Shown here one piece after another: positions 39,384-46,219 of a DNA stretch of 64,000 nt (its first letter is position 1; the number at the start of each line of letters is the position of its first letter). Under the pieces are notes generated by a model. It saw nothing but the letters and a program-made list of their open reading frames with translations, did no database searches and was not told the origin of the DNA. Made by a program: the position numbers and the translations under genes. Origin of the DNA: Nitrospirota bacterium (GTDB lineage Bacteria; Nitrospirota; Thermodesulfovibrionia; Thermodesulfovibrionales; Dissulfurispiraceae); assembly GCA_004321915.1 (NCBI GenBank), contig SCQE01000088.1:1-64000 (forward strand). The letters run 5' to 3'.

Positions 39384-40646
39384 ATGCCTCTTTTCGGTGA
39401 ACTTTTTATAAGCGAAATTCTCAAGAAACCTGTCTACGACCCCAAAGGGGAGATAATCGGCAAGGTCAAGGACCTTGTTGTGATCAAAGGCGACCCGCTT
39501 CCGAAAATCGCGTCGATAATCATAGACAGGCCGCAGGGCTCCTGCAAGATAGACTGGGAACGGACCAACATATTCAACAAGCGCATTATATCTTCTTTTA
39601 TCAATGCCTCGGAGGCAGAGTCCTACGATATGGACGACGACGACCTTTTGGCGGTCCGCGATATCCTAGACAAACAGATAGTCGACGCCAACGGCGCAAA
39701 GGTTGTGAGGGTCAACGACATAAAGATAGAAGGGTATGAGGAGGAGGCCGTTTTGATCGCCGTGGACGTCGGCATGCGCGGCATTATGAGGAGGCTCGGC
39801 ATCGAGCGCGGAGGAGAAGAACTGCTCCGGCTTTTCAAGACACAACTGCCGTACAACCTGATAAGCTGGAACTATATTCAGCACCTTAAGCCAAAACTTC
39901 AGACCATATCGCTCACAGTGCCGAGACAGATGCTTTCCGACCTGCATCCGGCTGACATAGCCGACATTATAAGCCGGATTTCGAGAGAGGAGGGCGCGCA
40001 TCTGTTCAAAGACCTCGATCTTGAAACAGCGGCAGAGGCGCTTTCGGAACTGAAGCCGGACATGCAGGCCGATATTATAAACGCGATGGATGCCGAACAG
40101 GCCGCCGATATTATCGAAGAGATGCCGCCTGACGAGGCTGCCGACGTGTTGAGCGATCTGCCGACAGAGAAGGCCCAAGAAATTCTCGAACACATAGAAA
40201 AAGAGGAGGCCGAAGATATTCAGGAACTGCTCGGCCACGAGGAGGACACTGCCGGAGGACTCATGACGAATGAGTTTATCGCCTACGGCCCGGAAGTGAC
40301 CATAGCTCAAGCGATAGAGAGATTCAAAAAAGACGCCGGTGAGATGGAAACCGTTTACTATATCTTTGTCGTCGACGAAAACGAAAAGCTGGTGGGCGTT
40401 ACATCGCTCAGAGAGCTGATACTCGGCGATCCTTCCTCGACACTCGCCGAGATCATGGAGACAAAGACAAAGACCGTGACCACCAATGCGGACGATCTGG
40501 TCGTGGCCGAAATAATCTCGAAATACAACCTTGTAGCCCTGCCTGTTGTTGACAGCGAAGGCGCGCTCGTAGGCATAGTCACTGTCGATGACGTCATAGA
40601 CAGGATCCTGCCGCCCGCTGCGAAAAGACTCCGGAGAAAGGTATGA
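39384..40646 (+). CDS. Soluble PRC-barrel / MgtE-N / CBS protein (Mg-sensor-like)
   Basis: A 420-residue protein with no membrane helix. Residues 1-165 hold PRC-barrel-like beta modules (VYDPKGEIIGKVKDLVV; IVDANGAKVVRVNDIKI). About 180-285 is the superhelical MgtE N-domain (LHPADIADIISRI, MDAEQAADIIEEMPPDEAADVL). About 290-415 is a CBS pair (GHEEDTAGGLMTNEF..., VVDSEGALVGIVTVDDVID). In MgtE this N-CBS unit senses cytosolic Mg2+ and gates the pore. Here the pore is absent and the start of an NRAMP-like permease gene overlaps the stop (ATGA at 40643-40646), so it probably regulates that carrier. Confidence 0.88.
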   Translation: MPLFGELFISEILKKPVYDPKGEIIGKVKDLVVIKGDPLPKIASIIIDRPQGSCKIDWERTNIFNKRIISSFINASEAESYDMDDDDLLAVRDILDKQIVDANGAKVVRVNDIKIEGYEEEAVLIAVDVGMRGIMRRLGIERGGEELLRLFKTQLPYNLISWNYIQHLKPKLQTISLTVPRQMLSDLHPADIADIISRISREEGAHLFKDLDLETAAEALSELKPDMQADIINAMDAEQAADIIEEMPPDEAADVLSDLPTEKAQEILEHIEKEEAEDIQELLGHEEDTAGGLMTNEFIAYGPEVTIAQAIERFKKDAGEMETVYYIFVVDENEKLVGVTSLRELILGDPSSTLAEIMETKTKTVTTNADDLVVAEIISKYNLVALPVVDSEGALVGIVTVDDVIDRILPPAAKRLRRKV

Positions 40647-41881
40647 CGCTCAGCCGCTGGAAAAGATTTCTTCTCTTTTTTGCCGTGATGGGCCCCGGCA
40701 TCATAACCGCCAACATCGACAACGACGCCAGCGGCATCACAACTTATTCCGTTGCAGGCGCCCGCTTCGGCTATAACCTTCTCTGGACGCTCATTCCCAC
40801 CACCATCGCGCTCGTTGTCATACAGGAAATGGTGGCACGTATGGGCGTTATAACGGGAAAGGGGCTGTCGGACCTCATTCGGGAAAATTACGGGGTAAAG
40901 ACGGCGTTTTTTATGATGATAGGCCTGCTGGTCGCCAACTTCGGGAACACGGTTGCCAATTTTGCAGGATGGGCGGCGAGCATGGAGATTCTGGGATTGA
41001 GCAAATACGTCATGGTGCCGATAGGGGCGATATCCATCTGGATACTGGTCACCAAGGGCAGTTACCGGTCGGTCGAAAGGATACTGTTGTTTGCCTGCCT
41101 CATATATATCGGCTATGTGATTTCGGGTGTGCTAGCAAAACCGGACTGGGGCGATGTCGCAAAGAGCATGGTAGTGCCGAAATTACAGTGGAACTCCGAG
41201 TACATAATGCTCAGCATCGCCATAATCGGAACGACGATAACTCCGTGGATGCAGTTTTATCTTCAGTCCTCGATCGCAGAGAAGGGAATTAAAAAAGAGG
41301 ATTACAAGGCTTCGAGGCTCGACGTGGTTGTGGGATGTCTTATAACCGACCTGATAAGCTTCTTCATAATCACGACCTGCGGGGCCTTGCTGTTTCCGCA
41401 AGGCATAAGGATCAACGAAGCATCGGAAGCTGCGGTAGCGTTAAAACCTCTTGCGGGCGACTATGCCTCTCTGATCTTTGCTGTCAGCCTTGCAAATGCG
41501 TCCCTGCTCGGCACGATTATAGTGCCTCTTGCCACAGCCTACTATATATGCGAGGCCATGGGCTGGGAAGCGGGGATCAACAAGACGTTTAAAGAGGCGC
41601 CACAATTCATGTGGATATACACACTGACCATAGTGTTTTCTGCTCTCCTCGTGCTTACGCCCGGCGCGCCGCTCGTTTCGATGATGGTGCTTTCGGCCTT
41701 TATAAACGGCATTCTCCTTCCCTTTGTGCTGATCTACGCTATAGCATTGGTAAACAACTCCAAGCTGATGGGTGAATACACAAATCCCCGGTTTTACAAC
41801 TACATATCGTGGGGAACGGTCGTGGTTGTGATAGCCTTGACCGCGGTCTTGGTCATCAGCATAGCAGTACCCTCGGCTTAA
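40643..41881 (+). CDS. NRAMP/SLC11-like permease with altered metal-site motifs
   Basis: A 412-residue carrier with about eleven helices and the NRAMP layout. Helix 1 has MGPGIITANIDNDASGITT, in which the metal-site DPGN is DNDA (D26-A29). Helix 6 has IGTTITPWMQFYLQSS, in which the metal-coordinating Met of the MPH motif is Thr and the His is Trp. Loss of that Met is the change linked to Mg2+-transporting NRAMP relatives. It is coupled to an Mg-sensor-like MgtE-N/CBS gene. Mg2+ or another hard cation is the inferred substrate; Mn2+/Fe2+ is less likely. Confidence 0.82.
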   Translation: MTLSRWKRFLLFFAVMGPGIITANIDNDASGITTYSVAGARFGYNLLWTLIPTTIALVVIQEMVARMGVITGKGLSDLIRENYGVKTAFFMMIGLLVANFGNTVANFAGWAASMEILGLSKYVMVPIGAISIWILVTKGSYRSVERILLFACLIYIGYVISGVLAKPDWGDVAKSMVVPKLQWNSEYIMLSIAIIGTTITPWMQFYLQSSIAEKGIKKEDYKASRLDVVVGCLITDLISFFIITTCGALLFPQGIRINEASEAAVALKPLAGDYASLIFAVSLANASLLGTIIVPLATAYYICEAMGWEAGINKTFKEAPQFMWIYTLTIVFSALLVLTPGAPLVSMMVLSAFINGILLPFVLIYAIALVNNSKLMGEYTNPRFYNYISWGTVVVVIALTAVLVISIAVPSA

Positions 41882-41883
41882 TC

Positions 41884-41914
41884 CTACAAAATTGTAGCTC
41901 CTACAAAATTGTAG
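41884..41914. promoter_or_regulatory. Tandem pair of 14-bp palindromes upstream of amtB
   Basis: CTACAAAATTGTAG at 41884-41897 and again at 41901-41914, in a 17-bp tandem repeat. Both copies are perfect palindromes. Centres lie about 173 and 156 bp before the expected amtB transcription start, a normal place for a sigma-54 activator. Confidence 0.65.
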
Positions 41915-41969
41915 CCTTTTACAAACCCCATTGTTTTTCTTAGGTTGATGGCCTCATGAGCGCAATTTC

Positions 41970-41983
41970 CTACAAAATTGTAG
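41970..41983. promoter_or_regulatory. Third copy of the 14-bp palindrome upstream of amtB
   Basis: The same CTACAAAATTGTAG, centred about 87 bp before the expected amtB start. All three copies share flanking C before and C after the palindrome. Confidence 0.65.
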
Positions 41984-42037
41984 CTTTTTGCTTTTACCGG
42001 CAAATTATTTCACCTTTAAAATCAATATATTTATAGG

Positions 42038-42053
42038 TGGCATGATTTTCGCT
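42038..42053 (+). promoter_or_regulatory. Sigma-54 promoter of amtB
   Basis: TGGCATGATTTTCGCT matches the -24/-12 consensus TGGCAYR-N4-TTGCW except for one T to C change, with the required GG-N10-GC spacing. It lies 37 bp before the amtB ATG, leaving room for the ribosome site. Confidence 0.7.
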
Positions 42054-43391: not shown

Positions 43392-43439
43392 TGCCTATTA
43401 ATCAGGCTATGGCTGCCTAATTAATAGGCAGCCATAGCC
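43392..43439 (+). terminator. Overlapping hairpins after amtB
   Basis: A perfect 14-bp stem (43405-43418 / 43426-43439, 7-nt loop) follows the stop codon directly. An alternative 11-bp stem (43392-43402 / 43420-43430) uses part of the same DNA, so the two exclude each other. No T-tract follows. Probable 3'-end or attenuation structure. Confidence 0.55.
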
Positions 43440-43481: not shown

Positions 43482-43497
43482 TGGTATGACTATTGCA
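43482..43497 (+). promoter_or_regulatory. Sigma-54 promoter of the amidotransferase gene
   Basis: TGGTATGACTATTGCA fits TGGCAYR-N4-TTGCW with GG-N10-GC spacing. The expected start point, about 12 bases after the GC, is near 43508, only four bases before the ATG at 43512. Confidence 0.7.
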
Positions 43498-43511: not shown

Positions 43512-44210
43512 ATGAATGTTCTGATCTGCAAAAACATAAGCATCGAAGGGCCGGGAACTATCGAGGATTTTCTCAGGAAAAACGATATGCCCTACACAAC
43601 GGTCGACCTTAGCGCAGGCGAAGAAATACCGGACACAAAGGATTTCGAGGCGCTCGTGATGATGGGCGGCCCTATGAGCGTTAATGAAGACGATATCTAT
43701 CCGTATATAAAAAAAGAAGAAGAGTTGGTGCGTGAGTTCATAGCAAAAGACAAAAAAGTATTCGGCGTCTGTTTGGGCGCGCAGCTTATGGCCAAAGCCC
43801 TCGGCGCAAAGGTTTACGCAGGCGCCGAAAAAGAGATAGGCTGGTATGACATCGAGCTTACCGATTCTGCATTGGCAGATCCGTTTATGGGCAGACTCTC
43901 GGCAAATCCCGATACAGGCGCGCCGGATAAAAAGATCAAAGTCTTTCATTGGCACGGTGAGACTTTCAATGTCCCTGAAGGGGCCGTAAGACTCGCGGGT
44001 TCGGAGCTTTTCCGGAATCAGGCCTTCAGGTTCGGCAAGAATGCCTACGCGTTTCAATTCCATATCGAAGTGCGAAAAGAGATGGTTTACGAATGGCTGA
44101 AAAACGAGAGCGTAGATTTTGAAAAGATAAAGAGCGACACAGAGACTGAGTACGAAGTTTATGAAAAAAGAGCATACAGTTTCTACGAGATGTTTTTTAA
44201 AGACAACTAA
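43512..44210 (+). CDS. Class I glutamine amidotransferase-like protein
   Basis: A 232-residue GATase1 domain protein resembling stand-alone GMP-synthase-like amidotransferases. The nucleophile is C87 in FGVCLGAQLMAKALG, and the catalytic His is in FQFHIEV. MMGGPMSVNED is a family signature. It hydrolyses glutamine or acts on a gamma-glutamyl compound; the acceptor is unknown. It is placed within the nitrogen block and has its own sigma-54 promoter so close that the transcript should be nearly leaderless. Confidence 0.87.
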   Translation: MNVLICKNISIEGPGTIEDFLRKNDMPYTTVDLSAGEEIPDTKDFEALVMMGGPMSVNEDDIYPYIKKEEELVREFIAKDKKVFGVCLGAQLMAKALGAKVYAGAEKEIGWYDIELTDSALADPFMGRLSANPDTGAPDKKIKVFHWHGETFNVPEGAVRLAGSELFRNQAFRFGKNAYAFQFHIEVRKEMVYEWLKNESVDFEKIKSDTETEYEVYEKRAYSFYEMFFKDN

Positions 44211-44302: not shown

Positions 44303-44644
<342 letters not shown>

Positions 44645-44806: not shown

Positions 44807-46219
44807 ATGACACCAAAAGACGTAATCAAGATGGCGCAAGAGAACAAGGCCGTGATGGCCAACTTCAAGTTCCTCGATTTCCCGGGAATCTGGCAGCATT
44901 TTGCGGTCCCTATTGCGGAACTCACTGAAGGCGTTTTTGAGGAGGGGCTTGGATTCGACGGCTCTTCAATAAGAGGGTGGCAGGCCATCAACGCATCCGA
45001 TATGTTGATAATACCCGATGCGGCGACCGCTTTTATGGACCCGTTCATGGAGTATCCGACCATCAGCCTTATCTGCAATATCGTGGACCCTATCACAAAA
45101 GAGTTTTATTCGAGGGACCCGCGTTTCATAGCGCAGAAAGCGGAAAAGTATCTCCAGTCGACAGGCGTAGGCGACACGGCTTACTTCGGCCCCGAAGCTG
45201 AATTCTTCATCTTCGACGGCATAAGGTTCGATCAGAATTCACACAGCGGATACTATTTCATCGAATCTACGGAAGGCATCTGGAATTCAGGCCGCGAGGA
45301 AAACCCTAACTTGGGCTACAAGCCAAGGCACAAAGAGGGTTATTTCCCTGTTCCGCCGACAGACAGTCAGGTCAACCTCAGAACAGAGATGGTTATGGAG
45401 ATGCTGAAGTGCGGCATCTATGTCGAAAGGGAGCATCATGAAGTAGCGACAGCCGGTCAGGCGGAAATCGACATGAGATTCGATTCTCTCGTCAGGATGG
45501 CCGACAAGAACATGCTCTTCAAATACATCATCAAAAACGTTGCGAGAAGGCACGGCAAGACCGTCACCTTCATGCCCAAGCCGCTCTTTGGCGACAACGG
45601 TTCCGGAATGCATGTTCATCAGAGCATCTGGAAAAAAGACAAGCCGCTATTTGCGGGCAACGGCTATGCAGGCTTGAGCGACATGGCCCTTTACTATATC
45701 GGCGGTGTTTTGAAGCACGCAAAAGCGCTCGCAGCTATCACCAATCCGACCACAAACTCTTACAAGAGACTGACCCCCGGCTTCGAAGCCCCGGTCAATC
45801 TTGCTTACTCCGCAAGAAACCGTTCCGCTTCGATCAGAATTCCGACCTACTCCGCAAGCCCGAAGGCGAAGAGGGTCGAGGTCAGGTTCCCCGACCCGTC
45901 CTGCAACACCTACCTTGCGTTCACCGCAATGCTTATGGCAGGACTCGACGGCATAGAAAACAAGATACATCCCGGAGAACCGCTCGACAAGGATATTTAC
46001 GAGCTTGGACCTGAAGAGCTTGCATCTGTTCCGACCATGCCCGGAAGCCTCGACGAGGCGTTGAACAACCTCGAAGAAGACCATGACTTCCTGCTTAAAG
46101 GCAATGTCTTTACAGAGGATGTTATCGACACATGGATAAGCTACAAGAGGACCAAGGAAGTCGATCAGTTAAGACTGAGACCCCATCCTTACGAGTTCTT
46201 CCTCTATTACGACATCTAA
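44807..46219 (+). CDS. glnA: Glutamine synthetase, type I
   Basis: A 470-residue GSI-beta-type enzyme making glutamine from glutamate and ammonia. [40 protein letters not shown] and [18 protein letters not shown] are all present. The adenylylation region [16 protein letters not shown] holds the Tyr, so control by GlnE is possible. AAGGAGGAG precedes the ATG. A strong terminator follows. Confidence 0.97.

Follow-up and report, generated by a model that had tools for sequence, protein, structure and literature searches.

Ammonium uptake genes are usually placed under the control of NtrC, which recognizes sites of the form TGCACC-N5-GGTGCA and elsewhere also controls nifA, and NifA from rhizobia is expected to bind TGT-N10-ACA. 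In Aquifex aeolicus, GAF-type homologues resembling NifA have been reported (Nlh1 and Nlh2), and Aquifex is generally regarded as a non-diazotroph. The activator AnfA binds the consensus TAC-N6-GTA, as was established experimentally for anfH of Rhodobacter capsulatus (PMC7294313), and DVU3220 from D. vulgaris binds an amtB-PII operon in EMSA (PMC3333781). Nitrogen regulators of bacteria such as the one studied here can be without a known motif, as is the case for DVU3220 (PMC4641369).

The window, the whole stretch of DNA analysed, comprises 64,000 nt from a Nitrospirota bacterium with a genome of 3.63 Mb (G000, other G numbers denoting related genomes); the sites, their conservation and geometry, the promoter, the gene context and the co-occurrences described below were obtained by computation. 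Around amtB the following features are found, distances being counted between the first base of a site and that of the sigma-54 element.

40643–41881, plus strand: NRAMP-family transporter gene, ending 2 bp before operator copy 1
41884–41897, plus strand: operator copy 1 (distal), CTACA-N4-TGTAG, 154 bp before the −24/−12 element (start to start), kept in relatives
41901–41914, plus strand: operator copy 2, 17 bp after copy 1 and 137 bp before the −24/−12 element
41970–41983, plus strand: operator copy 3 (proximal), about 67–68 bp before the −24/−12 element, 66–69 bp in relatives
42038–42053, plus strand: sigma-54 promoter element TGGCATGATTTTCGCT, with an equivalent element in relatives and rpoN in the genome
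42090–43391, plus strand: amtB, ammonium transporter gene, the target gene

A sequence scan located CTACAAAATTGTAG exactly at the coordinates of the three copies. An earlier note on this DNA had described them as three exact 14-bp palindromes, and their positions were correct, but the reverse complement, CTACAATTTTGTAG, differs and therefore each 14-mer is not a strict palindrome but an inverted repeat with 6-bp arms around an AA centre. All three copies share the 17 nt TCCTACAAAATTGTAGC in one orientation, and TAC-AAAATT-GTA is present in each of them. The proposed −24/−12 element contains GG-N10-GC and is close to TGGCACG-N4-TTGCW, as is characteristic of sigma-54 promoters, and rpoN, on whose presence the earlier proposal depended, occurs as a single gene. 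When transcription is assumed to start 12 nt past the C of GC, the operator centres fall at about −173, −156 and −87 relative to this start, the same values as had been calculated before. Among named genomes, the closest AmtB is that of a Nitrospiraceae MAG (75%). The NRAMP-family gene is regarded as a neighbour and is not thought to be part of the operator system; in other genera the gene upstream of the operator is glnK or another one, not NRAMP. The first pair of copies could fold as RNA (z = −2.0), as would be expected if the repeats acted as a terminator or attenuator of the NRAMP transcript, but in other genera the repeat accompanies amtB/glnK and not an NRAMP gene, and against a dispersed repeat stands the finding of just one exact copy elsewhere in the genome; synteny and genomic copy number thus make both explanations extremely improbable.

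The pattern CTACAA-NN-TTGTAG has four matches in the genome, the three in the window and one at C120:8995, and the reversed pattern, used as a control, has none. The fourth exact 14-mer (C120:8995–9008, locus L005) has the same 17-nt context and lies between an MCP gene and dnaE, 71 nt before the latter, and no sigma-54 element was found near it; in the genome scan that had been suggested, three of four exact copies are at amtB. With three mismatches allowed, the additional matches in this genome were mostly at chance level, the control count being equally high, and a site with two mismatches, TCTACAAAAATGTAGC, precedes its second amtB operon. Among 40 related genomes searched, 16 contain the exact pattern, and most of these loci adjoin amtB, glnK or, in G015, nifH, the exceptions being L090, L095, L096 and the C120 site. 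In the amtB-type loci that were fetched, exact CTACA-N4-TGTAG occurs 29 times in the 500 bp preceding amtB/glnK (52.5 kb in total) versus 15 times in the other 653 kb, corresponding to an operator density about 23-fold higher than in the surrounding DNA, a ratio somewhat favoured by selection because part of the loci had been fetched for the presence of the exact pattern; those fetched through AmtB show the same enrichment. Ten control palindromes with permuted arms were found 0 times before amtB/glnK and six times elsewhere. Weaker candidate versions are present upstream of amtB in Desulfobulbaceae, Thermodesulfatator, Omnitrophota and an acidobacterium, and literature searches for a description of a CTACA-N4-TGTAG operator found none. 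The operator is real and looks functional.

The aligned sites follow the form [T]CCTACA-(A-rich N4)-TGTAG[G/C], and therefore the conserved element is CTACA-N4-TGTAG with the core ACA-N4-TGT, which can also be written TAC-N6-GTA; the AA at the centre of all three window copies is one variant of the operator. This form bears on the strongest named rival, NtrX, the response regulator of NtrYX (own gene C64:9514–10884), which would bind the sites and activate amtB. For NtrX a site CAA-N2-5-TTG has been reported (PMC9223101), which the window 14-mer contains as CAA-AA-TTG, and the NtrX of this bacterium shares the GSFTGA loop listed for DVU3220, which binds an amtB-PII operon of D. vulgaris. However, ACA-N4-TGT is the part conserved across genomes, whereas CAA...TTG is not kept and CTACAAAAATGTAG and CTACATTTTTGTAG are common. 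NtrX is present in 39 of 40 genomes, including those lacking the operator, so that it is uninformative as a co-varying partner, and no operator site was found before the ntrY gene of the source genome. We therefore consider activation by NtrX unlikely.

The amtB promoters of G000, G001, G035, G027, G039, G008 and G010 have three sites at 152–157, 135–140 and 66–69 bp, and those of G019 and G007 have two of the three, giving nine genomes in all with this geometry, among which the distal site lies at 152–159 bp; the 17-bp pairing of copies 1 and 2 is kept in relatives. In a second class of promoters, that of the second amtB operon, sites occur at 77 and 59 bp in several genomes, and in the source genome this operon (porin-amtB-glnK) is preceded by two operator sites at 88 and 58 bp and a sigma-54 element. 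Such fixed placing would suit the requirements of a looped enhancer. In the case of nifH promoters, ACA-N4-TGT occurs twice, exactly 20 bp apart, and conservation at the 12 core positions ranges from 16 to 20 of 20 genomes, whereas no shuffled nifH upstream region matched more than 10 of 12. The nifH double of the source genome (C63:10865–10894) is the only such double in that genome. TGT-N10-ACA is found at the same promoter, and at nifH of this order it coincides with the inner half of the two dyads. Conservation of the outer ACA/TGT does not extend to those proteobacterial nifH promoters that were inspected, and nifH of D. vulgaris pDVUL01 has no double dyad. The NifA-like gene of pDVUL01 (L315) is preceded, at a distance of about 258 nt, by one ACA-N4-TGT palindrome, TGACATTTATGTCA. 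A canonical NifA site at amtB was considered and rejected, as the TGT-N10-ACA spacing is absent from amtB sites, between whose copies TGT-N7/8-ACA is formed (TGT-N7-ACA in the window).

Downstream of amtB, a second set of regulatory sites and genes was found.

43392–43408, plus strand: NtrC-type site 1, TGCCTATTAATCAGGCT
43414–43430, plus strand: NtrC-type site 2, TGCCTAATTAATAGGCA, 22 bp after site 1 and kept before the same gene in relatives
43482–43497, plus strand: second sigma-54 promoter element, TGGTATGACTATTGCA, preceding the amidotransferase-glnK-glnA unit
43512–44210, plus strand: class-I glutamine amidotransferase-domain gene, first gene of the second transcription unit
44306–44644, plus strand: glnK (PII protein)
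44807–46219, plus strand: glnA (glutamine synthetase)

The sites at 43392 and 43414 are TGCCT-N7-AGGCA repeats with a TGC-N11-GCA frame. At a spacing of 22, the double scores 15 of 20 or more in 14 of 20 related promoters; a single shuffle in 600 attained 15, and 22 is the clear optimum of spacing. Around site 2 there is also an inverted repeat with a 15-bp stem, GGCTATGGCTGCCTA-ATTAA-TAGGCAGCCATAGCC (43405–43439), which has no T run. With NtrC-type sites at the 43482 promoter, two enhancer codes therefore adjoin in one cluster. TGC-N11-GCA was not found at the amtB promoter of the source genome, in agreement with the earlier observation that the copies do not resemble NtrC sites; the accompanying suggestion of a lineage-specific NtrC finds no support, since it is the following sigma-54 promoter in this cluster that has conserved NtrC-type sites. 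Its other suggestion, an enhancer for a different sigma-54 activator, is supported, the same distances being found at amtB of relatives and the operator also at nifH and before a NifA-family gene. NtrC-type doubles at amtB promoters were found only in G014 (L197) and G024 (L194), two of the three genomes without CTACA operator and NifA-family protein, which is best read as an exchange of the CTACA operator for an NtrC-type enhancer.

The NifA-family gene of the source genome is the following.

G000:C53:10228–11772: NifA-family activator gene with GAF, Sigma54_activat and HTH_8 domains

Its product scores 569.5 bits against the NifA equivalog TIGR01817 (NCBIfam), the cut-off being 528.9 (528.85). 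Cys residues occur only at 121 and 255, and the GAF cysteine motif of AnfA/VnfA proteins is absent. Its HTH is very similar to the one in rhizobial NifA, so that sequence alone does not account for the change of site from TGT-N10-ACA. The operator TTACATTTTTGTAG is located 34 nt before the ATG of this gene, and an equivalent site precedes many orthologues. There TTTACA can serve as −35 box, about 17–18 bp before TTAAACT, so that the operator copy overlaps the probable −35 of a predicted promoter. The gene is followed by a ParA-like gene (the two together at G000:C53, L211:8229–10552), whose longest open frame lacks the N-terminus, possibly owing to a frameshift or a late start call. An inverted repeat over a probable −35 would also suit the operator of a nitrogen-responsive repressor, but the amtB and nifH sites lie about 60–160 bp upstream of the sigma-54 element with fixed spacings, in the enhancer zone, and a sigma-54 promoter needs an activator, for which no other conserved site was seen there; repression through these sites is thus quite improbable.

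Orthologues of the C53 protein are not restricted to diazotrophs, since genomes such as G008, G027, G033 and G037, which are without nifH, keep both operator and activator orthologue. Genes for GAF-type relatives are present in or beside amtB loci of G007, G012, G029, G031, G032 and an acidobacterium, and where checked they are unlinked to nif. In a Pyrinomonadaceae MAG (L072:4640–6960), a GAF-type activator gene is divergent from amtB, and CTACA-type sites and sigma-54 elements are located between the two genes and also after amtB. Neither activator nor operator is present in G014, G024 and G038, and in G014 the neighbouring ParA gene remains with another gene in the place of the activator. 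G015 has the activator and an operator at nifH but none at amtB. An activator orthologue was not found in G013 (99% complete), G005 and G017 (81% and 84% complete) despite an operator at amtB; an assembly gap was considered for G013, and inspection of the dxs-tlyA block left the absence unaccounted for. Co-occurrence of activator and operator is statistically weak, with Fisher p = 0.14 for sites of at least 9/10 and 0.014 for sites of at least 8/10, relatedness being ignored.

About 30 other sigma-54 activators are present in the genome, and one of them might bind the sites, the NifA-family gene being merely one of its targets. The three genomes that keep the operator without the NifA-family gene agree with such an arrangement, and the site upstream of the nifA-like gene may mark that gene as a target just as well as it may mediate autoregulation. 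However, a site over −35 suits repression rather than activation of nifA under nitrogen shortage, and among activator classes only the GAF type recurs next to amtB, which makes a different activator a doubtful alternative. The C53 protein of the NifA/AnfA family is most likely the reader of the operator at amtB, because AnfA, a member of its protein family, binds TAC-N6-GTA, because the dyads stand at nifH and at its own gene, because nif-less genomes with the operator keep orthologues, because GAF-type relatives recur at amtB loci, and because G014, G024 and G038 are without both protein and operator. Against this reading stand the three operator-bearing genomes in which no orthologue was found, G015 with its operator-free amtB, the weak co-occurrence, the similarity of the HTH to rhizobial NifA, the missing AnfA-type cysteines and the large number of other activators.

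Activation of ammonium uptake by a NifA/AnfA-type protein is therefore the explanation that, judged from sequences, we prefer, with a probability of roughly 0.6. Identity of the binder, signal and direction of control are what we infer in the following scheme. Together the three copies would be a sigma-54 enhancer with three sites, from which amtB is switched on: under a shortage of fixed nitrogen, a dimer of the NifA/AnfA family, most likely the C53 protein with its GAF sensor, AAA+ ATPase and Fis-type HTH, would bind each TAC-N6-GTA dyad, and the bound activators would form an ATPase ring that contacts the sigma-54 polymerase across a DNA loop and opens the promoter. At nifH and at the second porin-amtB-glnK operon this protein would work from the doubled sites, from the site over the −35 box it would damp its own gene, and the amidotransferase-glnK-glnA unit would be driven by another regulator from the NtrC-type sites. 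More tentatively, and with somewhat less than even confidence, we propose that in this order the NifA-family protein serves as a general regulator of nitrogen and is retained also where nitrogen is not fixed, that it reads ACA-N4-TGT dyads (at amtB two that are 17–18 bp apart and a third about 70 bp further on, at nifH two that are 20 bp apart), that TGT-N10-ACA at nifH is only the inner half of two dyads, and that amtB switches to NtrC-type enhancers when the protein is lost.

Two adjoining sigma-54 promoters in one nitrogen cluster thus have different conserved enhancer codes, and the code at amtB matches that of the alternative-nitrogenase activator family. New are the true form of the operator, the nitrogen regulon and the fixed geometry, together with a likely binder from the NifA/AnfA family and the adjacent NtrC-type code. 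A little-studied group of bacteria thereby gains a specific motif, a candidate binder that can be named and a probable natural exchange of enhancers (G014, G024).

Compared with known systems, the TGC-N11-GCA frame of NtrC sites is common to the sites at 43392–43430 but absent at the own amtB promoter. DVU3220 binds an amtB-PII operon but is a response regulator without known motif (PMC4641369). Nlh1 and Nlh2 from Aquifex are, like the C53 protein, GAF-type NifA relatives, reported from an organism generally regarded as non-diazotrophic. At nifH in this order, the NifA site TGT-N10-ACA makes up the inner half of the two dyads, the outer ACA/TGT being conserved here but not at proteobacterial nifH, and the amtB sites differ from it in the TGT-N7/8-ACA between copies. 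With regard to AnfA, its GAF cysteines are not seen in the C53 protein and its target is the Fe-only nitrogenase instead of ammonium transporters, nifH and the activator gene. However, AnfA is a GAF-AAA-HTH activator like the proposed C53 binder, and its sites at R. capsulatus anfH have the same dyad as the window copies (TAC-AAAATT-GTA), paired upstream of a sigma-54 promoter as at amtB here.
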